Source of the DNA: Dokdonella sp.
GTDB taxonomy: Bacteria; Pseudomonadota; Gammaproteobacteria; Xanthomonadales; Rhodanobacteraceae
DNA: 50,715 nucleotides
Reading direction: 5' to 3'
Assembly (NCBI GenBank): GCA_016712865.1
Contig: JADJQH010000005.1
Location: forward strand, 1-50,715
Made by a program: the position numbers and the translations under genes. Each line of letters begins with the position of its first letter. Position 1 is the first letter of the stretch. The notes below the pieces were generated by a model. The model was not told the DNA's origin, made no database searches, and saw nothing but the letters and a program-made list of their open reading frames with translations. Of this stretch, positions 1,108 through 50,715 are shown one piece after another.

Positions 1108-1167
1108 CTGCCTCTTGAGCCGGAACTTTTTGGGGAAAAGGTAAAACGGGCGTTATTCACTTCAGCC

Positions 1168-1196: not shown

Positions 1197-1223
1197 CCAC
1201 CCACGGACATCCCGCGAGGTCAA

Positions 1224-2694: not shown

Positions 2695-3205
2695 CTTCGA
2701 AGCGGCGTATACGCGGCTGAGCCGCTACAATCAGATGCCGGAAGAAGAAGGAGTTCTTCCGGTGTTACAGTTTGGAATGGAGGAGAAGTACTTTGTCCAA
2801 ACATTTTGGGACGTGGAGAGAGGTCTTGCAGCTTGGCGTGGACTATCTCCGGTTTCGGCGCGAGAGGCTTTGCGGGGGAATGTCTGGCTTCCGCTGCGCC
2901 TTGATCTTGTATCTCCTGGGCTTGCTGGGTATATTCTTGATCTTGGTTACCGGGCTGGTCCCTCTACCGTTAGGGTCTGGCTAAAGCTGCTCGCTAATGA
3001 GCTTCCTTCGCATCCGGTTGGAGATGATACGTGGAACAGAATAAAGGCGAAACAAACGGAGCCGGAAGTGGTGACAGCCTTGTCGACGTACTACATACGC
3101 CGGATGCAGAACAGCTATCTGTGGCAGGAACGGAAGCAACGGTGGGTGAACCGCAACACGCAGGCGGTAAGAGCGGCATTGAAACAGTTGGTCTCGATGA
3201 GCTGA
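2672..3205 (+). CDS. GH108-like putative endolysin
   Basis: The 177-aa protein resembles the middle and C-terminal part of GH108 (secretion-activator/N4 gp61-type) muramidases. A segment around residues 66-110 follows the family pattern of a YW-like motif, a 'lp-glag-ilDlgyraGp' turn, a helix, and G-x-x-T. The C-terminus has a WxeRkqrWVNR segment like the family's GWlnR ending. The canonical N-terminal EGGY and GGxTxxG motifs are not seen; an EEEG lies at about residue 24. It may be a diverged enzyme or a structural relative. The start is GTG 2672. The 3' end overlaps terL by 175 bp in another frame. Confidence 0.45.
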   Translation: MTVDAESSFEAAYTRLSRYNQMPEEEGVLPVLQFGMEEKYFVQTFWDVERGLAAWRGLSPVSAREALRGNVWLPLRLDLVSPGLAGYILDLGYRAGPSTVRVWLKLLANELPSHPVGDDTWNRIKAKQTEPEVVTALSTYYIRRMQNSYLWQERKQRWVNRNTQAVRAALKQLVSMS

Positions 3206-20867: not shown

Positions 20868-21833
20868 ATGAACGACCTGCTCGGACTAGGTGGCGAAATG
20901 CTTCCGCAGGCGCCGGGGAAAGATGACCCCGGCAATGCTACGCGTGAAGCGCAGTGGATGCAGTACTTTAAGAATCCGACGATCTCGGCTGCACTGTTCA
21001 ATATGGGGACAGCCATGATGCAGCCGAAATGGAATCAAGCTTCGATTCTGCCGGACGCGCTGAACGCGGGTGCGCGAACGGTTGCGGTTAACGAAGAAGA
21101 AGAGTATAAACGCGATCAGACGGATGAACAGAACAGACTGCGTCAGCAGGAAGGTACTGCTGGTCGTGCGAATCAGATGGCGATTGCAAAGCTTCAAGCG
21201 GATAGTCGTCTCGAGGTTGCACAAGAACGTATAGCTGGAATGTTGGCCGGGCAGCGGATAAAAGCGGAGCTGAAAGGTCCGCCCGGTTCGACTCAAGAAG
21301 CACAGCTATTTAACAATATGTACCGAGATGCGTTCAAGCAGCTGCAGAAAGAGAACAGTGAGGCGTGGCTGACGAAGGCTCCGCTGAAGACAGAAGACCA
21401 GATGAAACAGATTGCGCAGCAGCGAGCGCAGGAGGCATTGCAGAATTATAGGCTGCAATTTGGTGCACCTCAGCCTAGAGTTCCGGGGACGACAGTCGTG
21501 CCGGGAGTGGCCCCGGATACGGCGATTCCCGGGGAAAAAACCAGGCAAAATCCCGCGCCGGCCGGGCCGCCCGTAGGGACGCCGGGGGCTCCCGGATTAC
21601 CAAATTCTACCAGACAAAATACTCCGCCCGATAATCCCGGTTACCTCGCCAAACCGAAGCGACCTGACCAAGGTGTCCCGACGAGTGAGGCGATTAAGAA
21701 GTTAGGTGGTGCACAAGACCCACGAATTAAGCAGATTATGGAAGATGATACGTATTACAACCATCTCCGTAGTCGTGTGGCCGATCCAGAAGAACTTGAT
21801 CGTTTCCGTAGAACCTATCGTATGGTGCGTTAA
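20868..21833 (+). CDS. Putative internal virion protein 2
   Basis: The 321-aa protein has a helical, charged middle (about 60-200; NEEEEYKRDQTDEQNRLRQQ) that should form coiled coils. A Pro-rich linker follows (about 200-265) whose codons differ from the flanks, and then a helical C-terminus. The TAATG junction at 21831-21835 couples it to the giant gene. Helical, soluble-looking proteins here are usually ejected with DNA. Confidence 0.65.
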   Translation: MNDLLGLGGEMLPQAPGKDDPGNATREAQWMQYFKNPTISAALFNMGTAMMQPKWNQASILPDALNAGARTVAVNEEEEYKRDQTDEQNRLRQQEGTAGRANQMAIAKLQADSRLEVAQERIAGMLAGQRIKAELKGPPGSTQEAQLFNNMYRDAFKQLQKENSEAWLTKAPLKTEDQMKQIAQQRAQEALQNYRLQFGAPQPRVPGTTVVPGVAPDTAIPGEKTRQNPAPAGPPVGTPGAPGLPNSTRQNTPPDNPGYLAKPKRPDQGVPTSEAIKKLGGAQDPRIKQIMEDDTYYNHLRSRVADPEELDRFRRTYRMVR

Positions 21834-24800
21834 TGGCTGATGAACTGAAGCAAGAGATTGATTCATTGTTGGGTCCGGGCGTTCCGGACCCTTCAATCGT
21901 TCCGGACAAAGCACCGGGTGTTCCGGAAGATCCGTTGAAACTGTGGATTGATCAAGCGGTGCCGGCGCCGAAACAAGCTACACCTGCGCCCGCGCCGAAG
22001 CAGATAGCGCCGACGGAAAAAGTTCCGAAAGCTCCGGATAATCTGTTTTCTGAAATAGATACCGTTACTGGCAGTCCAGAACGGTTCGCAAGTCCGGAAA
22101 AGCTGACGCCGCCTGATAGTGGTATGGTTCCGGTTCTAGATGAAGGTGAGCCGAAAACACCCGAGACACGTCCGGGATACATTGAAGCTCCTTTGAGAGG
22201 TATGAGCCGTGGCGTCGATATGCTACGGAGTGCGGTGCCGACGTTGCAAGGTGTGTATAGTGAGTGGACGGGAGATATAGAAGCTGCGGCACAATATGCG
22301 GCTGAAGCGAAGGCTATTGACGACGCGGCTTATAAACCGATTGTAGGCGGGTTTTCGAATATTAAGAATGCTGAAGATGCGTTGTACTGGATGCTCGAGA
22401 CGCAAGGTGAAATGACACCAATACTCGCGGCGGTGATGATAGGTGGGTATGTGGGAGGACGAGCCGGATCGTCGATGATGGCACCCGCGCTGTTGTATAC
22501 CGCGGTGCGTGCGGGGCTTATGAGTCCGCAAGCTGCGACAGCTTGGGGTTCTACGATAGGAAGTGTACTAGGTGGAGCGCTAGTTTCGGTTCCGCTTGAA
22601 ACGGCTGATACAGCGGGAGAACTGCGTGAAGTGACGGGAAGCTTTCACCCGGAACTGTCACTTGGCTCGGGCTTGGTGAAAGGTGTGTTGGAGCTGTATA
22701 CCCCGCTCGGAATCCTTAACCGTATTACGGGTAAAGCGGCAGGAAAGAGTATCACCGGTGCGGTGGTGGGTACGGCGTTGAAAGAAGGTGTGACAGAGGC
22801 GCTGCAGGAAGAGGTGAATATTGCCGCGCGGAAATACGTCGATCCGAAATATAGCTATTTCGGAGAAGAGGCGCTGTATCGACGGCTTGATTCGTTTGCC
22901 GCAGGCGCATTGATGGGTGGGGTTGTCGGCGGGCCGACGGAGGAGCTTGGACGAAGGGTTGCACCGAAACAGGATACAGAACAATCTGTAGATGATGCTT
23001 TTGCTCCACAGTCGCCAGTGAGTGCGTTGAAGCGGGTGCTGCCGTTTTTGCAGACACAACGAGACCAGGAGCTGCTTACAGTGTTTCGGGCAAATCCGAA
23101 GCTGGATCCGCTTGAGGTGAATGTACTTCTTGACACCTTTGGAAAAGATTGGGCCGGAAGCGGAATACGGCTGAATAATGAAGAAGCATTTTATGATTGG
23201 ATGGAAGGACAAACGACACGATATGCGGTGGTCGATGAAATGGGGAAGACGACAGAGCTGTTAAATCCGACAGATCTCGAGCGTGCGTTGACGAAGTTTC
23301 CGGCGCGAGAAAGTCTGGCAGGACGGGTAGTTGAGGTCGATCAGAAGCTGCTAACCCCGGCCGGCATCACTGCGTCGATAACGGATTTGATTCAAGCGGA
23401 TGTGATGAAGCGGGTGTATTTTCTTCCGTCGGTTGACGCGGGGACGAAAAAACAGCTAATGACGGAATTTCAGGCTTTGGTCAACAGTACAGAATTTAAG
23501 CATGATGTACTGGATCATATGTTCGCGCCGAATGAAAGGGTGAAAGCGGCGTACGGTGCGTTTCTGGATAAAGGAATGCGGGTACTTCCGACCGCGGGAG
23601 CGAGCTATACCTATTCGGGAGAGTTTACTGGAAAGCTAGTTGCGAAGGTGCCGAAAACTGGAAGGTCAATAGCGGCAATTCGTCCGAACAAAACGTTGGG
23701 TAGTACGGTGCTGCATCCGGTTTCGGGTACGTTGAAACAACTGCGTGCATTTGGCATAGATACGAATAAGCTACAACCGGGTGATGCTATTTCAGACAGA
23801 CCATCGGAGTGGATTTGGCCGGCTTCACTTGATGCAAAAGATAGACAAGAACAATCAGCAGAATTTTCAGCTCTGTTGAAACAATACGGTAAAGATTCTA
23901 GTGCAGTTATTGAGCGTCTGCAAGAACTTATGGATATGGGTGTCCACGTCGACGCAACTAATGAAGTCGAGACGTTGGTGTTGAATCAAAAGGTTCTTGT
24001 TGAACAGAAGATGGTACCGACGTCGCAGACAAACGCGGAAGGGCTTGCACAAGCTAATGTATTTGCACGTGTTTTCGGTCAACGACAGTTTGTGAACAAA
24101 GTTGCTAAAGTAGAGGTGGCAGTACAACTATCACCTGAACTAAAACGTGCTGTGCACGACATGGAAAAGATTCTTGAAGCAGTTCATCCCGTATTTAAAA
24201 AACATGCTTTGCCTGGAGTAGAAAGGGTAGCATTACACATTAAGCCAGAAATAAACGCACATGTCAACCCGTCCGGACAGATTATGCTTGTTTATCCTGC
24301 AGACATGCCTTACGAACAAGCTATGTATGTTTTCATACATGAGCTGGGACATGCGGTGACCTTGGCGGCTTTTAGTAAATTGCCAACTGAACAAATTGAA
24401 CGCGTATATCAAGCCTATCGACGGAACGTTCTTGCGGACTCGTTGACGAACGCGACGTTGGCGCCGAATATGGAAAATACGGCTTGGCGTCAACAGCGAT
24501 TCGAAAAACAAGATAATATATATGCCTATTCTTTTGTTGAATATCTCGCTGAACAGTTCGGGCGCTGGATGTTCTCGCGCGGGCTCCCGACGAATTCGAC
24601 AGATGGTGTGTTTAAAGAGATCAGCAGTATTTTGCGCGAAGTCACGGAAGGGATTATAACCTGGAATATGTCTCTCGGAGACACGGTTGATGCGCGGCAG
24701 AGGTTGATGCCGGACTACACGTTCGGGCGGATGATGGATATTCTGTTTGAGCTGGAAGAAGAAACGACGATGGCGCAAAGGTCGTTTCTGGGTGGGAACA

Positions 24801-27800
24801 TACAAAAGATAGAAGAGCTGGCGCGAGCTGCGAATGATAATCCGGAACGTGGAAAAGGTTATGGCATTCCGCAGTTCCTTGCGACGTATATGAAACCGGA
24901 TGAAGGACAGTCGGTCGTACTTGAACGGGCGTATGAGATATATCGCGCGGAACAGGAAGACCCGGCAAACAGCATCCCGTATCCGCAGTTCCGGAACGAG
25001 ATCGGAAATACTGGAGTCCTTATTCAGCGCATTGCTGGCTTCGATCGTTTGATCGGGTGGCGTAAAGCTACCTATGCTGAACGTGAAGAGGCGAAAGCAG
25101 CGCAAAGTGCGGGCTCGAGCTTGCGACAGAATACACTCGAGGTAGCAGCAGCGGTCCGTCAAGGTTTCTCGATCCGTGATGCAATTCGGGTAGTGATTGA
25201 CCGCGTAAAAGGGATGCTCAATTCGTCGCCGGCGGACGGAGATGTGCTAGCGTTGCGCCTCGGACAGCTGCAGCAGATGGAACTGCAGAGTGTTAATGAT
25301 AACTTGACGGAAAGCCCTGTTTACGATAACGTTGTTTCGATGCGGGATGAAGCGGAGTTTAAGGCACAACGGCTAGAGGTACCGAGCCCGTTTCGGAACG
25401 AAGCGAGGCAAAGGAGTTTGCTGGACGAGTTCTACGACCTGTATCAAGAGAATCCAGTTTTCGACGACTTTGAAGATGCGTTTGCGGAAGCGAAACAAGC
25501 TATTGCGCCGATGTTGCCGAAAGGGTGGACGATTGAAGCAGGTGCGCCCGGTAGCGGTAACGACGCGGTGGCGAATACGAAGACTAAGACGATTGTGCTT
25601 GGGCTTGGCGCGTTGCGGCTAGGTGTGGGCGCGACGTTGGTGCACGAAACGATTCATGCGTTGCGCGCGGAAGGGCTGTTCACGCCCGAAGAGTGGAAAG
25701 CTCTCGTGCGGGAGATACGGCAAGATGCGGCGCTGTGGGGTGCAGTGCGGGCGCAATACGCGGCTGAATTGACGCGGAAGGCAGAAAAGCTCGCGCGTAC
25801 GATCGAGAATCCGGGTGAGAATTTCGTCCGAGATTGGGTGCAGGATAAGCTCGAAGAAGAAGCTGTTGCATTCGCGACAAGCATCCGTTTCGCGGGAGGA
25901 AATATAGGTCCGGTTTCGAACGGGCTGATCGACCGCATCATTGCCTTCCTTCGCGCGGTGAAAGAGAGGTTGATCGGAAAGGGGTATATCTCTCCGGGTG
26001 ATGTTCGTCGCCGCATCTTTTCGGGACAAGTGGCGGGAAGGCTAGAACAAGATGCGAAGTTCGCGAGGTGGACGAAGCGCGAGCAGGAGTTTGCGGCGCT
26101 GACTATGCCGACGAGTGAGCGAACGGAACGGGTGGCGATTATGCCAAATCCGGAGATCGTTCAACTTGATTCTGATCTGTTCATTGCGATTAAAGAGATG
26201 GGGAACAGTGCGTACGTGCGGATGTACTTTCCACCGGAGCAGCCGTTTTCTGCGAATATGTCGAACAATGCGAAGCTGATGGCACTCGGTGACTTGATCG
26301 GAGTTGTCGATCTGCAGAAGAATAAGAAAGGTTGGGAGGTTGACTGGGTTAAGGTGAATAAGAAAAGCTATGAACGTTATTCGGATAGACGTCGTCATGC
26401 AAAGTTTTCAGATCAGGTTTACGGCTATCTGTCAGAGCGTTTGGGCTTCCAGTTCCAGCCAAGTGCGACGTTGACGAAAAAGGGATACGATGCGTGGAAG
26501 TTCCGCGATCCGCAATCGGTGCGATATCATGTGTGGGTAGATGCGGAAGGGTATTATCACAGTCCGAACTATATTCGCGAAAAGGTACTTTACTGGAAGA
26601 GTCAGCTTTCTTCCCCGTACGAGGAGACGGCTGCGAAGGCGAAAGACGAACTACGTCAGTGGCAGGCGGCGTATCGTAAGGTGCCGAGAGAAGCGTGGAG
26701 TGATCCCGAGCTCGACCGTATGTTCGCGCGGACACTGACGACTGGAATGTTCGAGGCTATGCGGTTGCAGGAACAGGCGAATGCGGAGAGGTTCGTCACC
26801 GGCGTTCCGTCTCCACCGAGTGGGTTCGACCAGGTGCGGATGCAGAAGATAGAAGAATCGAAGCTGGAGAATGCACGAAGCCTCGGCATAGATCCCGCGT
26901 TGGCGATGCCGGAACAACCAGAGCTGATGGCTATGCGTGGGCTGACGCGGTGGAAGGGATTGACGCCGCAAGAACGACGAGCTCTGACAGGACTTACGCA
27001 CGAGGCGGACCGCATCACTGGATGGAGTAAACGGTGGTGGGGAATCCAGCAACTGATGTGGGCTAACAAGCACTTCACTGCGGGGCAGAAGTACGTCCAG
27101 ACGATTGAGATGTGGACAGCATTGCGTGCACGTTGGGTGGAGAAAGCGGACACGGTTGCGCGGAAGTGGGATAGATTGAAGCCGAACGGACAGAAAGAAG
27201 CTCTGGCAAAAACACTATTCTATATGACTGAAATGCAGTATCTGACGCCGCAGGAGCGGAGACAGAAGGTTATACGTCAGCCGACGCAACAAGAAACAGC
27301 TGCGGCGTTTACACAGTTCGGGCTGAACGCTGACGGACAGGCGCTATTTGCGGAGGTGAATGCGACCTTCTCTGACTTCTTGACGGAATTCGAACAGATT
27401 GCGCAGAAGTCGCTGCGGCGAGAGTTTGTAGGTAATCCGGCCGGGCTGCAGAAAGCGCAGGTAGAACTGGCTTCGGATATTGCGGCTATGCGCGCGAAGC
27501 CCTACTTCCCGTTGTCTCGTTTCGGGCAGTGGACACTGACGGTGAGGGATAGTAACAATCAGAAGGTGGAAGCATTCTACACCTTCGCCAGTGAAGCAGA
27601 ACGAAATAGGTATATTCTTATCGCGCGGCAGCAGTACCCGATGTCGGATTTGCGGGTGAGTAAGCTGCCGACGGCGATGCAAGATTACGTACAGTTGCCG
27701 GGTCCGGTGCTGAAACGGATTAAGGCGACGATGCCGGGTATTTCTCCACAGCAGAAGACGTGGCTAGATCAGCTCGAACACCAGACGGCGCCAGAGCGGA

Positions 27801-29737
27801 GCTTCCGTAAACATTGGATGACACGAGAAGGAACACCTGGCTACTCGCTCGATGCAATGCGTGCTTTCAGTACGTATTTGAATACAGGTGCAGGATATCT
27901 TGCACGTCTTGCCTATAAGGACGAAGCACAAGATGTTATTACTGCGGCGACGGCTGACGCGAAGCTGAATTTCGGTGAGTCACAAAAACGCTTCAATATG
28001 ATTTCGGAGATGCAAGAGCATCTTAACTATATGCTTGAGCCGGGAAGAGACGGAAGTAAGTTGCGGTCGTTTGCCGCGATGTGGTTTCTGGGCTTCTCTC
28101 CTGCCGCGGCGGCGATGAACCTGACACAGATTCCGGTCTTTACGGTGCCGTATTTGAGCTCGTTGTTTGAAGGTAGTGCAGTAAAACGGGCGTTGACGGC
28201 AGCGCACACCGCCCTAAAAGGAACTATAGCTGCACAGATGCATAACCCGCCATCACCGGGGTATGAGAAAGCGAGACAAGAATTGATCGCGATGGGTAAG
28301 ATCGATGCAGGACAAGCACCAGAACTAGGTGTCTATGCATCGACCGATAACCTTGCACGATCGGCTGCGGGAGAGAAGGCGCAACGACATTGGAGAAACT
28401 TCACCAAAGCTTCAATGTGGATGTTCGGTAAGACTGAACGCTTCAATCGTGAGCTGACATTCGCGATGACTTTTCAACTCGCAATGGACGCGCAAAACAG
28501 TGGAAAACAGAATAAGTATCTGGCGGAATTGTTTACGAACAATTCGCTCGAGATCCTCGATCTGATGTCGCGTACTGGTATGACGCAAGAAGAAGCTGTT
28601 GCGACGATCGCGGCGAAAGAAGCCATTGACCGTACACAGTTTACTTTCGCCCCCTGGGCACGGCCGAAGTTCATGCGAGGTAATCCAGTCGCAAGCGACC
28701 TGCTTGTCTTCTTCGGGTACATTCAATCTTCGCTCTACGCGATGAGACATAACCCGGGAAGAATTAAAACCCTCCTCACCATGTTCGCCTTATATGGCAT
28801 GATGGGGCTACCATTTGCGGCAGACATAGATAAGGTGGTGGAAGCCCTCGCACGTCAACTGTTCGGAAAAGACTGGAGTCCGCAGCAGGAAGCACGAGAG
28901 CTGATCGTCATGCTGACGAAAGAATCAGCTTTTGAAAAGGTCGGCGCAGATCTATTTCTTCATGGTATCTCTCGTTTCGGTTTCGGTCCGGGGCTGTTGC
29001 CGGAAGGTTGGGGAGCTCCACGCTTCGACGCTAGCGCAAATGGCTCGATGGGGAACATCATCCCAGTCGTGCCGGACATGATTAAATCTTGGGGACATTA
29101 TGGTAAGTGGAAAGAAATGGTCGGTGATGCGGCGCAAAAAGGAGCCGGTGCCGGTTATGGCTATATGTTCTCGCTACTACAGTTCCTTTCTTCTGATCCG
29201 CATACTGCGAACTGGAAAAAATGGGAAGCTATCATGCCTCGCGCGATGAAGGCGGCAAGTAAAGGAACAAGATACGCTGCGTATGGTGAAGAGAAATCGA
29301 GAAGTGGTGCGGTGATTGCGCAATTCGACCCGCGCGATCCTGACGATCTTTCGACAATCGTTACACAGGTTCTAGGCTTCTCGCCGCAGAAGCTTACTGT
29401 TCATTACGAAGCATTGCAGCAAAAGAAAGAAAGCGAGATGTTTTACAAAGGCTGGAGAATGTCATTGTACGTTCAATTGAATGAAGCTATTCAAGGTGGA
29501 GAACAGCCGGTCATAAATGACGTACTCGCTGGTATTGCGAAGTACAATGCTGAGGTCGTGCGTCAAGATCTGTCTCCGATGCAAATCAACACCCGTCAAG
29601 CGATCAGCTCTTTGAAGGGCCGAGCGCGTGGACGGGTGTTGGAAGAGCAGGGGCTGCCGGTGACGAAGGGAGCTATTCCGCTTTACCGTCGCATTGACGA
29701 GAGCTATCCGTTGCTGGAACGGAAGATTGTGAAGTAA
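21833..29737 (+). CDS. Giant ejection/polyvalent protein with two zinc-protease motifs
   Basis: The 2634-aa protein takes up 17% of the genome. Residues 1-110 are Pro-rich. Residues 195-330 are Gly/Ala-rich and hydrophobic, suited to membrane insertion. HELGH (836-840) and HETIH (1271-1275) are two separate zincin motifs, each after a beta strand. The C-terminal third is helical; about 2190-2330 (FNRELTFAMTFQLAM, then TQFTF-APWARPKFM and a hydrophobic helix) resembles LPD38-type domains of large polyvalent phage proteins. It is probably packaged in the head and ejected, with proteolysis of itself or host targets. It is not a virion RNA polymerase by any motif seen. Confidence 0.75.
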   Translation: MADELKQEIDSLLGPGVPDPSIVPDKAPGVPEDPLKLWIDQAVPAPKQATPAPAPKQIAPTEKVPKAPDNLFSEIDTVTGSPERFASPEKLTPPDSGMVPVLDEGEPKTPETRPGYIEAPLRGMSRGVDMLRSAVPTLQGVYSEWTGDIEAAAQYAAEAKAIDDAAYKPIVGGFSNIKNAEDALYWMLETQGEMTPILAAVMIGGYVGGRAGSSMMAPALLYTAVRAGLMSPQAATAWGSTIGSVLGGALVSVPLETADTAGELREVTGSFHPELSLGSGLVKGVLELYTPLGILNRITGKAAGKSITGAVVGTALKEGVTEALQEEVNIAARKYVDPKYSYFGEEALYRRLDSFAAGALMGGVVGGPTEELGRRVAPKQDTEQSVDDAFAPQSPVSALKRVLPFLQTQRDQELLTVFRANPKLDPLEVNVLLDTFGKDWAGSGIRLNNEEAFYDWMEGQTTRYAVVDEMGKTTELLNPTDLERALTKFPARESLAGRVVEVDQKLLTPAGITASITDLIQADVMKRVYFLPSVDAGTKKQLMTEFQALVNSTEFKHDVLDHMFAPNERVKAAYGAFLDKGMRVLPTAGASYTYSGEFTGKLVAKVPKTGRSIAAIRPNKTLGSTVLHPVSGTLKQLRAFGIDTNKLQPGDAISDRPSEWIWPASLDAKDRQEQSAEFSALLKQYGKDSSAVIERLQELMDMGVHVDATNEVETLVLNQKVLVEQKMVPTSQTNAEGLAQANVFARVFGQRQFVNKVAKVEVAVQLSPELKRAVHDMEKILEAVHPVFKKHALPGVERVALHIKPEINAHVNPSGQIMLVYPADMPYEQAMYVFIHELGHAVTLAAFSKLPTEQIERVYQAYRRNVLADSLTNATLAPNMENTAWRQQRFEKQDNIYAYSFVEYLAEQFGRWMFSRGLPTNSTDGVFKEISSILREVTEGIITWNMSLGDTVDARQRLMPDYTFGRMMDILFELEEETTMAQRSFLGGNIQKIEELARAANDNPERGKGYGIPQFLATYMKPDEGQSVVLERAYEIYRAEQEDPANSIPYPQFRNEIGNTGVLIQRIAGFDRLIGWRKATYAEREEAKAAQSAGSSLRQNTLEVAAAVRQGFSIRDAIRVVIDRVKGMLNSSPADGDVLALRLGQLQQMELQSVNDNLTESPVYDNVVSMRDEAEFKAQRLEVPSPFRNEARQRSLLDEFYDLYQENPVFDDFEDAFAEAKQAIAPMLPKGWTIEAGAPGSGNDAVANTKTKTIVLGLGALRLGVGATLVHETIHALRAEGLFTPEEWKALVREIRQDAALWGAVRAQYAAELTRKAEKLARTIENPGENFVRDWVQDKLEEEAVAFATSIRFAGGNIGPVSNGLIDRIIAFLRAVKERLIGKGYISPGDVRRRIFSGQVAGRLEQDAKFARWTKREQEFAALTMPTSERTERVAIMPNPEIVQLDSDLFIAIKEMGNSAYVRMYFPPEQPFSANMSNNAKLMALGDLIGVVDLQKNKKGWEVDWVKVNKKSYERYSDRRRHAKFSDQVYGYLSERLGFQFQPSATLTKKGYDAWKFRDPQSVRYHVWVDAEGYYHSPNYIREKVLYWKSQLSSPYEETAAKAKDELRQWQAAYRKVPREAWSDPELDRMFARTLTTGMFEAMRLQEQANAERFVTGVPSPPSGFDQVRMQKIEESKLENARSLGIDPALAMPEQPELMAMRGLTRWKGLTPQERRALTGLTHEADRITGWSKRWWGIQQLMWANKHFTAGQKYVQTIEMWTALRARWVEKADTVARKWDRLKPNGQKEALAKTLFYMTEMQYLTPQERRQKVIRQPTQQETAAAFTQFGLNADGQALFAEVNATFSDFLTEFEQIAQKSLRREFVGNPAGLQKAQVELASDIAAMRAKPYFPLSRFGQWTLTVRDSNNQKVEAFYTFASEAERNRYILIARQQYPMSDLRVSKLPTAMQDYVQLPGPVLKRIKATMPGISPQQKTWLDQLEHQTAPERSFRKHWMTREGTPGYSLDAMRAFSTYLNTGAGYLARLAYKDEAQDVITAATADAKLNFGESQKRFNMISEMQEHLNYMLEPGRDGSKLRSFAAMWFLGFSPAAAAMNLTQIPVFTVPYLSSLFEGSAVKRALTAAHTALKGTIAAQMHNPPSPGYEKARQELIAMGKIDAGQAPELGVYASTDNLARSAAGEKAQRHWRNFTKASMWMFGKTERFNRELTFAMTFQLAMDAQNSGKQNKYLAELFTNNSLEILDLMSRTGMTQEEAVATIAAKEAIDRTQFTFAPWARPKFMRGNPVASDLLVFFGYIQSSLYAMRHNPGRIKTLLTMFALYGMMGLPFAADIDKVVEALARQLFGKDWSPQQEARELIVMLTKESAFEKVGADLFLHGISRFGFGPGLLPEGWGAPRFDASANGSMGNIIPVVPDMIKSWGHYGKWKEMVGDAAQKGAGAGYGYMFSLLQFLSSDPHTANWKKWEAIMPRAMKAASKGTRYAAYGEEKSRSGAVIAQFDPRDPDDLSTIVTQVLGFSPQKLTVHYEALQQKKESEMFYKGWRMSLYVQLNEAIQGGEQPVINDVLAGIAKYNAEVVRQDLSPMQINTRQAISSLKGRARGRVLEEQGLPVTKGAIPLYRRIDESYPLLERKIVK

Positions 29738-39233: not shown

Positions 39234-39827
39234 TTATTCCTTGACGGGAGCGACGGCAGGCGGAACAGGCTCGGCAGAAACAGGCGCAGAAACGGGAAGG
39301 TCTGGCGGCGTCTCGACAGGGAGCGGAGGCATCGGGAGCTTGCGGGTGGGAGCGGAAAGGGGCTGTCCGACGTTGACAGAAGAATAAATGACTTCTTGAA
39401 TGGTAAAGTCGAGAGGGGAAAGTTCGAACATGGGCGCAATGAGCTCGAGGTGCGTTAGCGCGTCTTGCTTGTTGAAAAAGAGGTTAGGCAGCATTCGGCT
39501 CGTTTTTTGGTTAACGATTGCGAAGCCGATATAGGTTTGCTGCGCGCGACGGATATAGGTTTCGAGGTTTCGGAGAACGGACTGTAGATGTGCGATGATA
39601 TTGAGGGTAGTAGTAACAGGGTAAGTAGGAGCTGCAGTGTAGCCCAACAAATCAGTAGAGGCAGTAATGAGCGCAATGAGATCATTGCTGTACTCGCGAG
39701 CAAGATGGTTCGAGCTGACGAGCTTCAACGCGGCACGGATGTCCGCGATGAGCTTTTCCTCGTCGACGGACTTCGGCTCGTCGGTAGCCGAGCGGAGAAG
39801 AGAAGAAAATGAGGACGAAGGGTTCAT
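39234..39827 (-). CDS. Hypothetical helical protein, 197 aa
   Basis: The ATG at 39827 has AGGA eight bases upstream and overlaps the exonuclease stop (ATGA). Residues 20-120 are helical with many Leu and Ile (LNIIAHLQSVLRNLETYIRRA), a middle part is mixed, and the last 40 residues are Pro/Val/Ala-rich and disordered. No family was recognised. Location suggests a recombination or replication helper. Confidence 0.7.
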   Translation of the reverse strand: MNPSSSFSSLLRSATDEPKSVDEEKLIADIRAALKLVSSNHLAREYSNDLIALITASTDLLGYTAAPTYPVTTTLNIIAHLQSVLRNLETYIRRAQQTYIGFAIVNQKTSRMLPNLFFNKQDALTHLELIAPMFELSPLDFTIQEVIYSSVNVGQPLSAPTRKLPMPPLPVETPPDLPVSAPVSAEPVPPAVAPVKE

Positions 39828-40768
39828 AGTTCTGTTCCTTTGAGCGAGATGGGGTTCCAAACGCGGGTGACGTAGTTCCCGACCCACTCTTCGGGATCTT
39901 TCGCCGAACAGAGCATAGAGTAACTGCAGCCGCCGTAAGCGGTGCAGCCGTCAGCGAAATCGTAAACGAAATGGTCATATTTCCATGCCGAGATCATTGT
40001 CTCGACGGTGTTAACCATGGCGACGTACCAGCGGTCGATCAGGTGTTGCGGGAAGATGACCGGAACGGTCATGAAGTTGACTTTAGTCTTCAGGATGGCC
40101 GTTCCGCGCGCGACTGCAGCATGGACGGGGTGTCCGAGCTGTTGACAGGCCCAGCAGTAGCCGAGGAATTGTCCGCGGAGATCCCACTGCTTCCGCCAAG
40201 AGTCACCTAATGCGCTTGTTGTCTTTTCATCGAGGACGACGAGAAGGTCGTCCCACTTGGCCAGCATGTCGAAACGGCCAGAATAGAGCAGTGGGTCGCC
40301 CGTTTCGGGGTGGGGAATCGGCAGAGGTATAGCGAAAGAAAACTCGATCCGCGGAATGCGGTCTTCAGTAAAGGTGGGCTGAATGAAATCGGTGAGGGGG
40401 TGGTAGTCGGTGAGATAGGTCTGGAGAGCGTACCAGGTGTTGATAAAGGACTTGCCGTGGTCGAGGGCAAGGTCGAAGTTGCCCCACTCGCGCGAGAATG
40501 CGCGGAAGGCGGAGATGAAGAGTCCGTTCTCTTCAAGCGGAGGAATGGCGCGGAGCCATTCGAGCTGGTGCTCGCGAGGGGTGAAGCATTTCATTCGAGC
40601 TGCTTCCAGCCCTGCGGCGAAGGCCCCGCCGGCGACGAGGTGTATGGATTTCTCCGAAACATGGAGGTTGCGGAGGAACGAGTACTCGAACTTCTTGTGA
40701 CAGGACTTGAAGGTCGAGAGCATGGTCGAATCGATTGCGGTAGGGAAGGGGGGACGAGAAGAGGTCAT
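39824..40768 (-). CDS. Cas4/AddB-like PD-(D/E)XK exonuclease with Fe-S cysteines
   Basis: The 314-aa protein has STFKSCHKKF near the N-terminus (Cys 23), GRFDML (Asp 167), LDEK (Asp 180, Glu 181, Lys 182), and a Q-x3-Y motif (QFLGY, 200-204). These are the RecB-family nuclease motifs in order. Cys 275, Cys 281 and Cys 287 with Cys 23 could bind a 4Fe-4S cluster as in Cas4 and AddB. It probably resects DNA ends for the recombination ATPase downstream. Confidence 0.85.
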   Translation of the reverse strand: MTSSRPPFPTAIDSTMLSTFKSCHKKFEYSFLRNLHVSEKSIHLVAGGAFAAGLEAARMKCFTPREHQLEWLRAIPPLEENGLFISAFRAFSREWGNFDLALDHGKSFINTWYALQTYLTDYHPLTDFIQPTFTEDRIPRIEFSFAIPLPIPHPETGDPLLYSGRFDMLAKWDDLLVVLDEKTTSALGDSWRKQWDLRGQFLGYCWACQQLGHPVHAAVARGTAILKTKVNFMTVPVIFPQHLIDRWYVAMVNTVETMISAWKYDHFVYDFADGCTAYGGCSYSMLCSAKDPEEWVGNYVTRVWNPISLKGTEL

Positions 40769-41489: not shown

Positions 41490-41672
41490 TTAGAAACAGG
41501 TGTCGCAAGAACAGTGAGCTTTCTTGCCGCTCTCGCAATTAGGTGAGGCATCGTGCGGAGGGTGAAACTCTACCTCTGCCAAACTGTCACAGTACGAACA
41601 TTCACCGCGAGGTACTTTATGTCGACGGGCAGGCTTGTTTACCTTTTCCGGCTTTTTCTCTGTCGTAGACAT
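41490..41672 (-). CDS. Small Cys-rich, zinc-ribbon-like protein
   Basis: The 60-aa protein is Lys-rich at first, then has CSYCD (about 25-29) and an end with C-ESGKKAHCSCDTCF. Five to six cysteines and two histidines suit a zinc-binding knuckle. AAAGGA lies upstream of the ATG. It is the first gene after the hairpin locus terminator, so its promoter should lie at about 41673-41714, where none was clear. Confidence 0.6.
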   Translation of the reverse strand: MSTTEKKPEKVNKPARRHKVPRGECSYCDSLAEVEFHPPHDASPNCESGKKAHCSCDTCF

Positions 41673-41714
41673 TCTGGGGTTCCTTTGTTATCGGGAGCTT
41701 TGAGCGCTAAACGC

Positions 41715-41760
41715 AAAAAGCCCCAGGAAACAGAGAAAGGTTCTCTGTCGCCTGGGGCTT
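41715..41760 (-). terminator. Strong rho-independent terminator of the hairpin locus
   Basis: On the minus strand a perfect 10-bp stem, AAGCCCCAGG (41718-41727, plus strand) with CCTGGGGCTT (41751-41760), encloses a 7-bp stem CAGAGAA/TTCTCTG with a 3-base loop. It is followed by CTTTTTG. This ends leftward transcripts that cross the non-coding locus. Confidence 0.9.
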
Positions 41761-42074
41761 AGGTCCGTCGGGTGATGCGGGAGGACAGCCCGACGGAAGT
41801 GGCGTAGGTAGAATACAAGACCTGGAAGGGGGAGGCAAACAGGTCTTGCATGAGGGGCACCTACCTACGCAACGGAAAAGGTCGGAGTGAAGATGCGGCA
41901 GGGTGGCCGACTACTAACCAGGGGAGCTGGAACGCAAAAGGTACCCTGCCGCATCTCAGGTGGGGTTGCGGTCCCCGCCTACCGGATGGAGGTTTATCGA
42001 GCCTCTCTCTTGCTCTAGTTGCGGACGAGAGGTGCGCGTGGGAGGACGCAACACGATCTCGAACTAACGGCCTA
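41715..42074 (-). ncRNA. Tandem-hairpin non-coding RNA with C-rich (anti-Shine-Dalgarno) loops
   Basis: No gene fits this region. Instead it holds perfect stems: 41765-41772/41789-41796 (8 bp); 41802-41811/41861-41870 (10 bp) enclosing 41816-41824/41840-41848 (9 bp); 41891-41904/41943-41956 (14 bp) enclosing CCAG/CTGG; 41958-41965/41973-41980; and 42002-42007/42027-42032. On the minus strand, which the terminator shows to be transcribed, loops read UCCUCCC, CCUCCCCC and CUCCC, with UCCUCCC again at 42040-42046 and ACCUCC near 41986-41991. Such loops pair with Shine-Dalgarno sites, as in alphaproteobacterial CcsR/cuckoo RNAs. On the plus strand the loops would be GGGAGG, like CsrA-binding RNAs. 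An origin region is another possibility. Confidence 0.65.
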
Positions 42075-42119
42075 TTGTCGCACGGATAGGGGGCGCTGTC
42101 GATGCGACAAATTGTCGCA
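42075..42119 (-). promoter_or_regulatory. Operator-like palindrome and promoter region of the hairpin locus
   Basis: TGCGACAAATTGTCGCA (42103-42119) is a perfect odd palindrome. The same half-site recurs as TTGTCGCA at 42075-42082, and AGGGGGCG (42088-42095) lies between them. On the minus strand TTGTCG and TATCCG are 16 bp apart, a poor but possible promoter covered by the operator. The pattern of half-sites around a start region suggests repression, perhaps by the HTH protein at 42821 or 37143. Confidence 0.5.
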
Positions 42120-42133
42120 GGGAACATTTGTTC

Positions 42134-42376
42134 TCACTCTAGCTTCTGCTTCCGCTCGATCTCCGAGCCGTGGTAGAGGCCGGAAAGGTAGACGGCAAGG
42201 ATCGCCGCCTCGAGTGAGTGTTCGCGGACATAGGCTTGGCGGAAGATACCCTGTGCGATCCGGTTGACGCCGGACTCGAGTTGACGCCAAGCCTTTAGTT
42301 TTTCTTTGTCTCCGCTTTGTATGGCTTCCATGCGAAAGGTGGAAGGATACTTGGCATAGTCGAGGTCAGTTTTCAT
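42134..42376 (-). CDS. Hypothetical protein, 80 aa
   Basis: This is a helical protein with KEKLKAWRQLESGVNRIAQGIF and HSLEAAILAVYLSGLYHG. The start overlaps the stop of the gene upstream by 11 bp. It is the last coding gene before the hairpin locus. No family was recognised. Confidence 0.65.
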   Translation of the reverse strand: MKTDLDYAKYPSTFRMEAIQSGDKEKLKAWRQLESGVNRIAQGIFRQAYVREHSLEAAILAVYLSGLYHGSEIERKQKLE

Positions 42377-42821
42377 CCTTTTCCTTTTTGAGGTAGTCGT
42401 TGGTCAGCGTTCGCGGGATGTCGACGCGGTAGAAGTAGAAAGAAGGTGGGACCGCAGGTGGAGATGAATGAACATTAGGGGTGTCGCGTAAATGTGGGTT
42501 TTGGACGTCTTCAGCGAATAAAATAGCTATAGCGGGAGATTGTTTGTTGGCGTAGGCTACCAGTTCAAAAAGGTGTATATGGTTGATGTTTTTTACGGTA
42601 TATGCAAGAGCTTCGAAGTTTCTTCCGTCGAAGAAGTTCATAATATTTAAGCTATGCGCACGGTAATACGGATGGCTGTTTGGCCAAACTAAATTTACGT
42701 AATCTGCGATTCTGGGTTGTGGTGTATTTGCTATGAGAGCAATGTCACCTTCATGATAAACAGCAGTGTCGCAGATGGCGCGGACGAAGAGGCCAGGTGT
42801 GCGGGGAAATGTGAGAGCCAT
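42366..42821 (-). CDS. Hypothetical protein, 151 aa
   Basis: The mixed alpha/beta protein opens MALTFPRTPGLFVRAICDT, is AT-richer than its neighbours, and ends in a Lys/Glu-rich tail. A central part (LNIMNFFDGRNFEALAYTVKN) looks globular. Its start shares one base with the stop of the HTH gene. No family was recognised. Confidence 0.65.
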   Translation of the reverse strand: MALTFPRTPGLFVRAICDTAVYHEGDIALIANTPQPRIADYVNLVWPNSHPYYRAHSLNIMNFFDGRNFEALAYTVKNINHIHLFELVAYANKQSPAIAILFAEDVQNPHLRDTPNVHSSPPAVPPSFYFYRVDIPRTLTNDYLKKEKDEN

Positions 42822-45780: not shown

Positions 45781-45954
45781 GTGGGTGGGGAGGGGGGTAC
45801 CGTTTACCAGGCAATCAGCGGAATTCAGGAGAAATAAGAATAAAGCAGGCAAAATAAAGGGGGCGGTGATTGCGGCCGTCAGCGCCCGTTATACGCGAGA
45901 CCTCAGCGCGTATAGCCCGTTGCAATTTTCATCTCCTCCGACGTCCGGACGCAG

Positions 45955-45982
45955 AAAACCCCCGCGCTTGCGCGCGAGGGCT
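45955..45982 (-). terminator. Rho-independent terminator (right copy)
   Basis: This is the same GC-rich hairpin and TTTT as at 173-200, just downstream of the intact leftward gene ending at 46003. Confidence 0.8.
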
Positions 45983-46002
45983 CCTGTAGGCCGGCAGTGG
46001 AC

Positions 46003-46593
46003 TCAGGCCAGGGCGTCGAGGTTTGTATCCTCTGCACCCTTGGCCTTTTCGGCGGCTTCGGCCAGCTTGGCTTGCGCCCGCTCGGACCGAATGGCTGCAA
46101 CAGCCGCCTGGATCTTCACATCCGCCTCGACGGCGGTGCGATATGCTTCATCTGAAGCAAGGCGAGCCTTCCAAGACGCAACCTGCGCCTCATCGGGTGC
46201 CCGACCCTTAGCCGTGAAGACGCGAATGAGCGCCTCCACATAATCGGAGGTTCGAGCCCCGACCTTGGACTCCGAACTCCACAGTCCACCCCGGATGACT
46301 TCCAGCCGCGCCTCAGCGTTGTCGACCATCTCCTGAACGGAGAGCCCTTTCGCCCCGACGGTGTTCGTGACCGAGGTCATGATACCGTACAGAGCAGCCG
46401 CTCTCTGCACCTCAGCAGAGAGCTCGTCGAAAGCGAGGCCAACGGTGGCTCCGTTTTCAACAAAGGTTACGTCGAAACGCACGGAGTCCAGCTTTGCGCG
46501 CGCGGATTTCTCCCCATCTGCATTACTGAACACGCGGACAGTCTTCTCTGCCCGCTTCGAGCTGGTGCTCGCATCGTTGTCGATGTGTGCCAT
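46003..46593 (-). CDS. Conserved phage protein, intact copy, 196 aa
   Basis: The N-terminus is charged, then a beta-rich region (LDSVRFDVTFVENGATVGLAF), a helix (LSAEVQRAAALYGIMTSVTNTVG) and a long helical C-terminus rich in Ala, Glu and Lys (about 120-196). This pattern of a short beta domain, an 'LxxxVxxxxALYG' helix and an Ala-rich tail ending in acidic residues recurs in a widespread but uncharacterised phage protein group. It stands alone between its own promoter (46650-46678) and terminator (45955-45982), divergent from terS. AGGGTG supports the ATG at 46593. Its high GC and tight codon use suggest good expression. Confidence 0.85.
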   Translation of the reverse strand: MAHIDNDASTSSKRAEKTVRVFSNADGEKSARAKLDSVRFDVTFVENGATVGLAFDELSAEVQRAAALYGIMTSVTNTVGAKGLSVQEMVDNAEARLEVIRGGLWSSESKVGARTSDYVEALIRVFTAKGRAPDEAQVASWKARLASDEAYRTAVEADVKIQAAVAAIRSERAQAKLAEAAEKAKGAEDTNLDALA

Positions 46594-46649
46594 TTATGTC
46601 ACCCTGGTTGTCAAAAAGCAGCCGAACGGATTACCCGATCGACTCAGTG

Positions 46650-46678
46650 AATGTAACACCACCGGCTCCCAAAGTCAA
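46650..46678 (-). promoter_or_regulatory. Leftward promoter (right copy)
   Basis: This is the minus-strand TTGACT (46673-46678), 17 bp, TACATT (46650-46655), identical to 864-892 and 57 bp upstream of the intact leftward gene. Confidence 0.6.
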
Positions 46679-46855
46679 GGGGGTCCGGTGCGGCAGAACG
46701 TCGCAGGGGAGCCAGGGCGGCGCCCGCGCGGGGGATGTGACAACCCAGCCACACTGTCTCGTCCCTGCGACTGTGGCAAGCTGGTGACTGTGACTTATTT
46801 GTAGCTGTTGCATGAAAGCTGCTCTGTCTCTTTTTTCTCACGACCTTGCGGGCAA

Positions 46856-47424
46856 ATGGCTGAAGAAACTCTTCCACCCGAATCTCCGCCCCCGCCGAAA
46901 AAATTCAACCCGCGCACCGTCGCGTGGTGGCACGAGGCGTTGGCTGATTGGCTGATTCAAAACCCCGACAAGCACGCAAAAGATGCGGCGGTCGTGTTCG
47001 ACACCAGCCTGAGCTATATCCACATGCTGAAGAATTCTGACACCTTTAAGGCGTACTTCGCCGGGAGGCGAAACAGTTGTCGGCCGGAGTCGAAGACAAA
47101 GTTGCGTCGATGTTTGGAACCCTTCCGATAAGCTGGCCGCTCTCGCTGAAGCCTCGCTCGACGTGCTCAACGCGAGGATGGAACAGGTGGCGCTGGCCGG
47201 AAGTAATTCCTCGATGCCGAATGAGCAGCTGCTTCAGACGGCCGATATGGCATTGAAGAAGCTCGACGGGTTTCTCGTTCCGGGACAGAGCTCGGCGCAT
47301 ATGACGCAGGTTAACGTGAACGTTTCCGCGGACCCTCCTTGCGGCCGCGCGGGAAAAGATGGCGAAGCTCCTACCGTACGCAGGCAGAGCCGGTGTTGTT
47401 TGAGGAAGAAGGAAAGGTATTTGA
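46856..47424 (+). pseudogene. Broken right copy of terS
   Basis: It starts with the same ATG as 1224 but lacks the promoter and ribosome-binding site, lost with the 154-bp segment. The reading frame is first lost near 47070, where one A of AAAA is missing, and further indels follow. It is to be read as error in the right copy, not as a second gene. Confidence 0.85.
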
Positions 47425-47946
47425 TGCAGTACACGGGAGGTGAAAAGTTTATGTACCAAAAACAAAAATTCCGGTCGTAGAGAAGTTTACGGACTCACCT
47501 CCGCCAACGCAATGTTCGGTCAGTATGACTATGCGAAAAGGTTCTTCGGTTCCGAAGAAGGGGAGCGAAAGTGGTCGGGGATCCGCTTTGAGACGAAAGT
47601 ACATTCAACGTTGGCTGCACGTTATCCCTGGTTATATTTCTGCTCTGCCTTTTGGGTATTCTGACGTCCGTGGAGTCGGGTTTGTATCCCCGACGGGATC
47701 TTCATCCATGCCGGGCGGGTAGAAGTTGCTGAAATTAAACTCCGGCATTGTATTGAAGCCTGGATGCAACTACGTAAGTTGTACTTTCTTGTCGTAACAT
47801 CCGCCTTCGGACAGAGTCCGCGGTTGCTTGAAGTTGTTCAGTTTAGTGCCGGAAGTGGTCTTCCCCCGAGCCCACAGTTGTTCTACCTTCTTTCGAACAG
47901 TTCCATGTTCTGGAGCTGAAATGGTGAAGTATTATGGGGAAGATAA
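47424..47946 (+). pseudogene. Broken right copy of the PD-(D/E)XK nuclease
   Basis: It matches 1799-2320 with several indels, the first within the first 20 codons, so no full-length frame remains. The start and stop contexts are still recognisable. Confidence 0.85.
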
Positions 47947-48182
47947 ATGGAAGAGGCACTGTCGATCGTTAAGTTCTCTTCGGACAACCTGGAGTCGTAG
48001 GTAGGCGTTTCCGAATGGCAGGATATCTAGCATGGTTGCATCGCGAGGAGAAGGAAGACCACAAACGAACGCGGACAATGTTGAACGAGGATCTCGAGAA
48101 GCGGTTGATCGCGCACGGAGAATATAGAAAGTGCTGGCGGAGATCCGGACCCTGCTCTCGGTCAGCGGAGAGAGACCAGTGA
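47947..48182 (+). pseudogene. Broken right copy of the small membrane protein
   Basis: It matches 2321-2563 with indels near 47975 and 48125 that break the frame; the terminal GTGA junction to the next small gene is kept. Confidence 0.8.
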
Positions 48183-48288
48183 CGGAGCCCGCAGACAAGA
48201 TCGTGGCTCTGGAATCTTCACGCGAGATCTCGGCGGAGCTGTTTTCGGAAACACGACGCTTGGCTGAACGCTACCGGACAGCAGAGCC

Positions 48289-48823
48289 GTGACTGTGGAC
48301 GCGGAAAGCAGCTTCTGGAAGTGGCGTATACGCGGTTGAGCCGCTACAATCAGATGCCGGAAGAAGAAGGAGTTCTTCCGGTGTTACAGTTCGAATGGAG
48401 GAGAAGCATTTTGTCCAAACATTTTGGGATCGTGGAGAGAGGTCCTGCAGTTTGGCGTGGACTATCTCCGGTTTCGGCGCGAGAGGCTTGGCGGGGAATG
48501 TCTGGCTTCCGCTGCGCCTTGATCTTGTATCTCCTGGGCTTGGCAAAATATTCTTGATCTTGGTTACCGGGCTGGTCCCTCTACCGTTAGGTCTGGCTAA
48601 AGTTGCTCGCCAATGAGCTTCCTTCGCATCCGAGCTGGAGATGAGGCACGGAACAGAATAAAGGCGAAACAAACGGAGCCGGAAGTGGTGACAGCCTTGT
48701 CGACGTATTACATACGCCGGATGCAGAACAGCTTATCTGTGGCAGGAACGGAAGCAACGGTGGGAGAACCGCAACACGCAGGCGGTAAGAGCGGCATTGA
48801 AACAGTTGGTCTCGATGAGCTGA
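48289..48823 (+). pseudogene. Broken right copy of the GH108-like gene
   Basis: It matches 2672-3205; insertion of bases near 48316 and further indels break the frame. The GTG start context is kept. Confidence 0.8.
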
Positions 48824-50294
48824 TTGAACTTTGCGCCGTCGATACTGCGCTGTACGAGAAGACCTTCTTTCCCGACACCGACCTGCATGGAGCCGGAACT
48901 GTTTCACGGAGAGATGATGCAGTTGTTTGATCTGCTTGAGCGGTACTGCAACTTGCAGGTCTTTCGTGAGGGTGCGAAGACGACGAAGCAGAGAGATATA
49001 CCGAAGCGCATCGCGTATGGCATCCCGCGTACGATCTTGATTGTGGGTAAGAATCGCGGATCATGCGATACGTTCGGTGGTTTGGATTAAGAAACAGGTT
49101 GAGGAGAATAAACCTGAGGGAAACCTTTGGACTTGAAAAAAGGTGAAAAGTGGACCGACCTGAAATCCACATTAGGAACCGTCGTGCGGGGACCATACTT
49201 GGTTGTGGTTTTTGGTATTACTGGTAGGTGTTCGTGGAGTCAACTCTGACGATTATCGTCCTGACCTTATTCTAATCGACGACGTGGTGGCGGAGGAGAA
49301 CTCGCTGGACCGAAGAACAGCGGGACAAGACGATGAAGTTGGTTTTCGGGCGCTGAAGGAGTCACTGACGCCCGCGACGGAAAGCGAATTTGCAAAGATG
49401 AGATTCTGCAAACGCCGCAGGCTTTGAAGACGTTAGTCAGCGTGCGATGAAAGATCCGGAATCTAAGAGCGTACAGTATGGGTGTGGACTAAAGAGACAG
49501 AAGATTTTCCGCGGAGCAGAGGGAAAGCAGTTGGCCTGCACGATACCCATCAGAAACGCTTAGAGCTGAAAACGTGCAGCAATTGCGCGGAACGAGCTTT
49601 CTATCTTCTCGCGGGAGATGGAACGTAAGCTGATCAACGCGGAGCTGAGTAGATTTAAAGAAGACTGGTTACAGTATTATGGCCTGATGGAAAAGGAGCC
49701 GGAACCGGATTGGTCGGAGATGTGGGGGAGATGGCACTGATCCCTGTTCCACCTCCAAGTGAGAGTGCGATTGCGAAGGGGTTGAAGGGAAAGGATTATG
49801 GAGGTGTTTGCGGTTGTCGGAAGGAAGGCGGGAAAATACTATCTGTTTGAAACGAGTATGAATCGTGGACACGAGCCATCGTGGACGATAGCTGAAATTC
49901 TTCCGTCCGCGAACAAGTGGAGGCCGAAAAAGACACTGATCGAAACAGTCTCGTATCAGAAGACGCTGGAGTGGTTGCTTCTGACAAGCGATGAAACAAG
50001 TAGGGAGGAGCAGTTGTTGGAAGGCTTCGATGACAAACGGCAGAAGTACCATCGAATTGTGGACGGTATTAGCGGGTTAGTAGCAACCGTCAGCTTTTAT
50101 TCATCGTGAACGTCACATTGAATTTTGTTCTCAGTTCAGGTTTATCCGAACGTTCCAAGATGATGATGTGATCGAGGCGGCGGCGGTGGCACTAATTTTC
50201 TTTCCCGCGGGGAATGCCGGGGGGGAAGGAAGAGTATGATGAAGGCCAGGAAGAACATATACCTGATTTGGACTATCAGCGAGGAGCACCTTGA
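48648..50294 (+). pseudogene. Broken right copy of terL
   Basis: It matches 3031-4692, but the GTG start is changed to ACG and many indels break the frame. Short intact pieces, such as the Walker B region near 49265, remain readable. Confidence 0.85.
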
Positions 50295-50715
50295 TGCCGA
50301 GTATAACGCAGAACATTCCGAATAACTCTGTCTCTGGCAAGTGTTGATTCGTCAAGAGCAGGAAGTCACGGGAGAAAGCTATAACAAAGAATGATGAGTG
50401 AAAAGAGAAGAAAAGGTGCGCGGCTGAAGAGACGATGCTGGTTTATTTGCCCGAACGAGATGTTGACGCACTGCGGCGAGAGTCGCGCGAGGGAGGGTTG
50501 CCGCAATATACGACGATCCAGATTCCGTATACCGAGTGTGCGGTTTTGATGTCGGCGCATACGTATTTCACCTCGGTTTTGCGGGGGCGGAGTCCGTTTT
50601 TTCAGTTTTCCGCGCGGCACGGGGAGCCAGCGCAAGCGGTGCAAGCAATCGAAGCCTTGCACGATTATCAGACGCTTTGCGTAGACAGTTGCTCGGTCCG
50701 CTCTACACTTGGCCT
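50294..50715 (+). pseudogene. Truncated, broken right copy of portal
   Basis: It matches the first part of 4692-6656 with several indels and ends at the contig edge. Confidence 0.85.

Follow-up and report, generated by a model that had tools for sequence, protein, structure and literature searches.

The stretch of DNA analysed here (hereafter the window) is a whole contig of 50,715 bp (C5), one of eight contigs in a 3.75-Mb assembly. It carries a tailed phage, with terminase, portal and major head protein encoded on the plus strand, and with a minus-strand early module that encodes an exonuclease, a Sak4-like protein, a ParB-methyltransferase, a UDG/exonuclease-domain polymerase and a ribonucleotide reductase. 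From the shared assembly, we infer that the organism of the assembly is the host of the phage. The contig ends are direct repeats of each other (1-5103 and 45781-50713), with an identity of 98.8% over 1-1068 and of 94.1%, with many gaps, over 1214-5103, which suggests that a circular or permuted genome of ~45.8 kb was assembled with an overlap, partly in error or from a mixture. Because of this repetition, minus-strand open reading frames (ORFs) at 45.8-50.7 kb are doubtful. A 2634-aa plus-strand ORF (21833-29737) matches PHROGs in its C-terminal part, one of them named DarB-like antirestriction. Nearly everywhere in the window the minus strand is rich in C, and the sense strand of the early genes is poor in G.

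A region of tandem hairpins lies within the early module, between small genes on the same strand (42134-42376 and 41490-41672) and 0.95 kb 5' of the exonuclease gene. It has the following features:

39824-40768, minus strand: exonuclease gene (phrog_1218, E 1.9e-10), the anchor of the locus in related phages
41715-42133, minus strand: tandem-hairpin noncoding RNA (predicted transcript body)
41715-41760, minus strand: terminator-like hairpin with a GC-rich stem (20-nt inverted repeat, 90% paired, 41718-41737/41741-41760) and a minus-sense U run; tail CTTTTTGCG
41764-41797, minus strand: hairpin with a 9-bp perfect outer stem (41764-41772/41789-41797); loop region CUGUCCUCCCGCAUCA with CCUCCC, in which CCUCC (41780-41784) is unpaired with probability 0.98
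41799-41873, minus strand: two-storey hairpin with an inner 12-nt stem; apical loop UUUGCCUCCCCCUUC, CCUCC (41831-41835) unpaired 1.00
41891-41956, minus strand: 14-bp perfect stem (41891-41904/41943-41956) around a small hairpin; loop CUCCC (41922-41926) unpaired 1.00
41988-41993, minus strand: weakly structured ACCUCC, CCUCC (41988-41992) unpaired only 0.53
42036-42049, minus strand: short hairpin GCGU-CCUCCC-ACGC with a 4-bp stem in the fold; CCUCC (42041-42045) unpaired 0.92
42075-42110, minus strand: 5' hairpin with loop CGCCCC (inverted repeat, 80%)
42103-42119, unstranded: 17-bp perfect palindrome TGCGACAAATTGTCGCA, a possible operator; it has no second exact copy in the window, but a half-site again at 42075

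A first-pass annotation, made by reading the letters of the sequence, had described stem-loops presenting C-rich motifs, and its coordinates were borne out. In the minus sense, UCCUCCC is found at 41779-41785 and at 42040-42046 (the CCUCCC part of the latter forms the loop of the 4-bp stem), and CCUCCCCC at 41828-41835; CUCCC and ACCUCC were likewise located, and the 9-bp and 14-bp stems are perfect. The stems of the two-storey hairpin (41799-41811/41861-41873 and 41813-41824/41840-41851) are 12-13 nt long with one mismatch each. Both strands were folded, as the annotation had proposed: the minus strand of 41700-42130 reaches -184.3 kcal/mol, with a z-score of -10.2 against shuffles, and the plus strand of the same region a z-score of -7.7. 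The annotation also placed a near-ideal leftward terminator at the end of the region. The leftward direction agrees with both the neighbouring genes and the U-tailed hairpin, whose stem is trailed by UUUUU in the minus sense, but this hairpin is absent from the list of a consensus terminator scan, and the terminator reading is drawn from the inverted repeat and the tail sequence. The palindrome TGCGACAAATTGTCGCA lies directly 5' of the hairpin RNA. Inside the RNA there is also a 12-nt direct repeat with one mismatch (41871-41882 and 41931-41942; ACCUUUUCCGUU and ACCUUUUGCGUU in the minus sense); across the ensemble, the ACCUUUU of the two copies is paired for the most part (unpaired probability 0.25 and 0.47).

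The repetition of the motif had been called hard to explain by chance, and the controls agree. Seven of the eight CCUCC/CUCCC sites, which partly overlap, are unpaired with a probability of at least 0.8, whereas 60 dinucleotide shuffles contained a mean of 3.25 sites and a mean of 0.78 unpaired sites, with a maximum of 4 unpaired. When the region is folded as a whole, CCUCCC or CUCCC occupies four of seven terminal loops, short stems counted. A like-for-like sliding scan, which gives a weaker contrast than this count, found motif loops on stems of at least 5 bp in 2/6 hairpins of the region and 5/425 elsewhere on the minus strand (p 0.002), with corresponding figures of 2/5 and 2/280 for stems of at least 7 (p 0.0005) and 1/2 and 1/160 for stems of at least 9 (p 0.012). 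All these locus statistics concern a region that was selected after reading and a minus strand that is C-rich throughout; the shuffle and sliding-scan controls take the C-richness into account.

The locus is likely gene-free, as had been stated, even though an 88-aa ORF on the minus strand (42127-41861) and a 79-aa ORF on the plus strand overlap it. No PHROG match at E <= 1 was obtained for either, and neither has a tblastn relative at E <= 0.1 in the related loci, the sole match (L153) being the window's own stretch. A consensus promoter scan returned one minus-strand site in the region (42102-42074, 9/12), which corresponds to the chance rate (1.1 expected). No Rfam family exceeds its cut-off in the window. 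A permissive scan of 41600-42200 gave six matches up to E 10, among them ar14 on the minus strand (16.5 bits, E 0.95), which was outscored by two microRNA models whose matches are surely due to chance. At the DNA level, no similarity of the window RNA to any phage record was found, and the comparison with 16 records of relatives gave a single 15-nt match (E 0.053).

Related phages were collected as IMG/VR contigs sharing the early module, with 24-57% identity to the window in the methyltransferase or Sak4 and 37-45% in the exonuclease, and further relatives were added by ranking with the exonucleases of two other phages. The resulting survey set for loops and tags has 276 sequences (3.07 Mb), and is redundant and includes the window. 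Searches for relatives of the gene at 42366-42821, and single-sequence searches for those of the exonuclease, returned none; an exonuclease alignment recovered only the window's own gene among 398 genomes of the same order, and two MAG contigs among 25 stretches in genome_contigs.

Folds of the relatives revealed a recurring loop, (G)AAUUGARCCUCC, on unlike stems, and a hairpin with the loop AAUUGAGCCUC lies 5' of the same exonuclease gene, its stems changing freely. The UUGA in loops of this type may be a U-turn (YUNR). The hairpin stands 1.4-6.6 kb 5' of the exonuclease gene in relatives, compared to 0.95 kb for the window RNA. Of the 66 sense-strand copies of TTGARCCTC in the 276 sequences, 53 lie in a hairpin loop, compared with nine in a hairpin among the 97 antisense copies. 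This is the unbiased figure, since the tests of arm pairing used hairpins picked for having a stem. In the alignment used for those tests (A4; 30 of 31 dereplicated hairpins from 34 rows, with L198 left out), the arms share a mean identity of 29%, and cognate arms pair with a mean score of 20.0, against a mean of 8.1 and a maximum of 10.9 in 2000 permutations. A single fixed register of six pairs has a covariation score of 0.698, against 0.212 ± 0.038 for shuffled arms and 0.375 for the best slid version. Only 73% of the cells pair in this register because the loop length varies, and the number of pairs changed on both sides (six) does not exceed that in shuffles (5.8). A search of 90 of the ~275 relative sequences gave 13 matches at E <= 1, of which six were below 0.001, one of these six being antisense. 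Kept loops on covarying stems, which the annotation had proposed to look for in related phages, are seen in the lineage, but the loop kept there is AAUUGAGCCUC and not CCUCCC.

CCUCCC-type loops leave a fainter trace among the relatives. Hairpin loops with CCUCC or CUCCC are modestly enriched upstream of the exonuclease gene, where 136 intergenic gaps from 73 relatives hold 11 of them, against 5.7 ± 1.8 in shuffles and one on the antisense strand; some of the 11 are the AAUUGAGCCUC hairpin itself. Among pooled loop 5-mers from 2374 sense hairpins of the 73 relatives, CCTCC was seen 24 times (14.3 expected) and falls outside the top 25. In distant relatives, CCUCC hairpins in tandem are not conserved, and Rfam cut-offs were passed by no family, C4 included, in seven relatives' loci. 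A strict-terminator rule for finding hairpins missed the window, found hairpins in only 16 of the 276 sequences and was dropped.

The kept loop has a counterpart in the messages of the same phages: an extended Shine-Dalgarno (SD) tag, GAGGCUCAA, the exact complement of AAUUGAGCCUC, precedes several of the relatives' own early genes. The complement GAGGYTCAA has 97 sense sites, 65 of them with an ATG within 14 nt. After dereplication, an ATG follows at 48 of 68 sense sites and at one of 39 antisense sites. Nine scrambled patterns gave 4-10 sites with ATG each, out of 7 to 41; some come near the true tag in fraction (4/7, 7/13), and its excess is one of number. A weaker form, AAGG[CT]TCAA, stands before ATG in 32 of 61 cases. 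Counting also an ATG that overlaps the last A of the tag, 78 ORFs are tagged, 73 of them of at least 25 aa, with two or three tagged genes per locus in some relatives. They form 24 protein clusters (the three largest have 12, 11 and 11 members), and homologues of exonuclease, Sak4, DNA polymerase and methyltransferase are among them. As the tag is found in 24 unlike gene clusters, inheritance of one gene does not explain it. Loop and tag searched together as one pattern (20 fixed bases, one spacing range) matched seven stretches in all of IMG/VR, all in lineage contigs already known.

Some loops of other sequence also match tags at ribosome-binding sites (RBSs) of their own locus: GGAGGCAA at L226:2588 matches three tags (0.09 expected), GGAGGCTTA at L233:47 two (0.02) and GGAGGTTG at L075:1563 two (0.04). 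Further cases are L285 (3 against 0.22 expected), L265 (3 against 0.26), L287 (2 against 0.36) and L061 (2 against 0.14), and weaker ones are L239 (1 against 0.14) and L157 (1 against 0.68). Taken together, the non-canonical loops are not in excess (310 of 1755 hairpins, beside 44 canonical ones; flank-shuffled control 302). The individual variants, which are leads picked post hoc, suggest co-evolution of loop and tag.

A covariance model of the lineage hairpin (R1, built from 30 hairpins) has no match in the window RNA region up to E 10, and its best match elsewhere in the window scores 12.1 bits (E 0.19). RBS tags complementary to the loops of the RNA do not occur beyond chance in the window phage: four window hairpins have an 8-mer match to an RBS (4.8 flank-shuffled), none of the four in this RNA, and the longest perfect complement of its loops, 12 nt at +45672 before a 17-codon ORF, is equalled by 29 of 100 shuffled loop sets. 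The RBSs were compared over 26 early genes chosen from 34, leaving out the ORF over the RNA and those beyond 45780, in the end repeat. The ORFs of the relatives included both known and unknown starts. G-rich SDs precede none of the 26 genes, compared to 619 of 3562 in the relatives (p 0.015, two-sided), while AAGGA-type SDs precede 13 of 26, compared to 903 of 3562 (p 0.011, two-sided); GGAGG alone is not significantly rarer in the window's early genes (p 0.10). The absence of G-rich SDs would spare these genes from CCUCCC loops, and may itself be explained by the G-poor sense strand. Five early genes on the minus strand between 31 and 46 kb share AAGGAAC before the ATG, where 1.2 would be expected from the relatives. 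AAGGAAC is a possible tag of the window phage's own; a search for its complement turned up no strong hairpin.

We consider that the region 41715-42133 probably encodes an anti-RBS RNA of the phage, whose CCUCCC loops are generic, and assign this reading a probability of about 0.6. It is favoured because fold and unpaired motifs exceed shuffles, because the U-tailed hairpin has the same direction as the genes on either side, and because of the matched loop and tag in relatives, the SD types of the window's early genes and the C-rich-loop RNAs in the same assembly (described below). It is weakened by the missing match to the lineage model, the chance-level complementarity to the window's RBSs and the want of a convincing promoter. 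The anti-Shine-Dalgarno reading put forward in the first-pass annotation gains support from the exposed loops and from the relatives, but not from the window's own RBSs. A noncoding RNA would be transcribed leftward alongside the early genes and stop at the 41715-41760 hairpin. Its CCUCCC-type loops would pair with G-rich SD sequences and block translation initiation, with repression the more plausible outcome than activation. The most likely targets would be messages with G-rich RBSs from the host and/or late phage genes, as for sX13, and repression would be expected for messages led by GGGAGG or GGAGG and not for those led by AAAGGAAC. The RNA may be a divergent counterpart of the lineage's anti-RBS hairpin 5' of the exonuclease gene.

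A wider proposal goes further, and we hold it only tentatively. The lineage would run a translation-control code of its own, made of a fixed anti-SD loop on a changing stem and a tagged early regulon, with loop and tag co-evolving, and the window phage would have given up a private tag in favour of generic CCUCCC loops, which would leave its AAGGA-led early genes alone and act on G-rich RBSs in host or late phage messages. We lowered its probability slightly because 44 of 186 relatives are also without any GGAGG SD.

The main rival to an anti-RBS RNA acting on other messages is a cis-acting leader or attenuator, in which hairpins and terminator would govern read-through or translation of the downstream genes (from 41490-41672 on) by loops pairing within the transcript. 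The window RNA is flanked by same-strand genes, and in 11 relatives' loci a tagged gene lies downstream in the same direction, the distance from motif to tag being 88-213 nt; by our reading of the folds, a terminator-like hairpin lies between motif and tag in several of them. However, other tags lie at distances of kilobases, a single locus can have as many as three tagged genes, and the next genes in the window have AAGGAAC SDs, which CCUCCC loops match poorly. We therefore regard cis-attenuation as unlikely, though worth keeping in view. Less probable still is a DNA-level element (an origin, packaging or recombination site) or a set of insulating hairpins, with the loop motif a by-product of the C-rich strand. 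The near-continuous C-richness of the minus strand and the 17-bp palindrome at the 5' end would fit such an element, but composition-matched shuffles yield far fewer unpaired motifs, and the strand-specific loops and RBS tags of the relatives point to RNA. A replication origin at the locus was rejected, as no switch in skew is seen there in 2-kb steps.

The first-pass annotation had offered a CsrA-type decoy as its alternative, with the plus strand presenting GGGAGG loops to CsrA/RsmE. The plus strand does fold well, but the U-tailed hairpin and the flanking genes point left, relatives keep their loop on the sense strand, and no CsrB/RsmZ model matches at its cut-off on either strand of the window or is among the six region matches up to E 10; this alternative has lost nearly all its ground. 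A small protein encoded by the 88-aa ORF is equally improbable, since the frame, although open, matches neither a PHROG (E <= 1) nor a relative's locus (tblastn, E <= 0.1) and such sizes are common by chance (251 ORFs of at least 60 aa in the window).

RNA-based translation control by phages is thinly documented, and a literature search covering few subscription papers found no phage RNA with anti-SD loops that addresses many genes. The matched loop and tag of the relatives suggest a phage-made RNA switch of protein synthesis, and as such a pair can be read from sequence, phage riboregulation becomes directly testable and searchable.

Three known systems bear comparison, although model scores reject membership of the window RNA in the ar14, sX13 or AAUUGAGCCUC hairpin families. 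Like sX13 (RF02232), the window RNA has tandem stable hairpins, apical C-rich loops and a terminator hairpin, and at least three stable stems with apical C-rich loops are predicted in it. It differs in being phage-borne, in its length of ~420 nt compared to 115, in having more hairpins, and in presenting CCUCCC rather than CCCC loops, and the sX13 model (gathering score 50) has no match in 41600-42200 up to E 10. For sX13 itself, repression is reported to depend on C-rich sRNA motifs together with G-rich motifs of the target mRNA (PMC3771888). An sX13-like RNA is present in the same assembly (47.0 bits), with loop regions ACCUCC, CCUCCCC and UCCCCC in its fold; sX13 matches were found in 26 of 40 genomes of the same order, nine over the cut-off, and in one of 14 controls, which was below it.

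An ar14-like RNA is also present in the assembly (35.0 bits, cut-off 58.8), in what we take to be an ahpC/ahpD/oxyR-like region, and folds into two hairpins with loops CCCCCUCCCC and CUCCCC (L056:1501-1600, the same as G000:C2:741370-741469). Matches to ar14 were found in seven of 20 genomes, none over the cut-off, and in none of 14 controls. Together with a 16S reading, these RNAs make Xanthomonadales/Lysobacterales the most likely order of the assembly. RNAs of the ar14/cuckoo/CcsR/NfeR1 type have several hairpins with unlike stems, each showing the anti-SD motif CCUCCUCCC (PMC10746234). The likeness of the window RNA to CcsR/cuckoo RNAs, which the annotation had noted, holds for the design, an anti-SD motif shown in several unlike hairpins, and for the strand of the ar14 (RF02344) match; it is a likeness in structure only, as the score of 16.5 bits against 58.8 does not make it a member. 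Its loops carry CCUCCC, CUCCC or CCUCCCCC, and CCUCCUCCC, which ar14 RNAs show unpaired in each of three hairpins, does not occur in it. The motif is shorter than in ar14, and the assembly is most likely not alphaproteobacterial. If the anti-RBS reading is true, tandem C-rich-loop RNAs would not be confined to distant bacteria but would occur in a phage too. The closest phage precedent is the C4 antisense RNA of P1/P7, whose Rfam family has no match over the cut-off in the window. According to a review, this RNA probably uses loop sequences to block an RBS of the phage (PMC12197685). Its described target is one gene (ant), whereas in the relatives a common SD tag would put many genes within reach of the loop.
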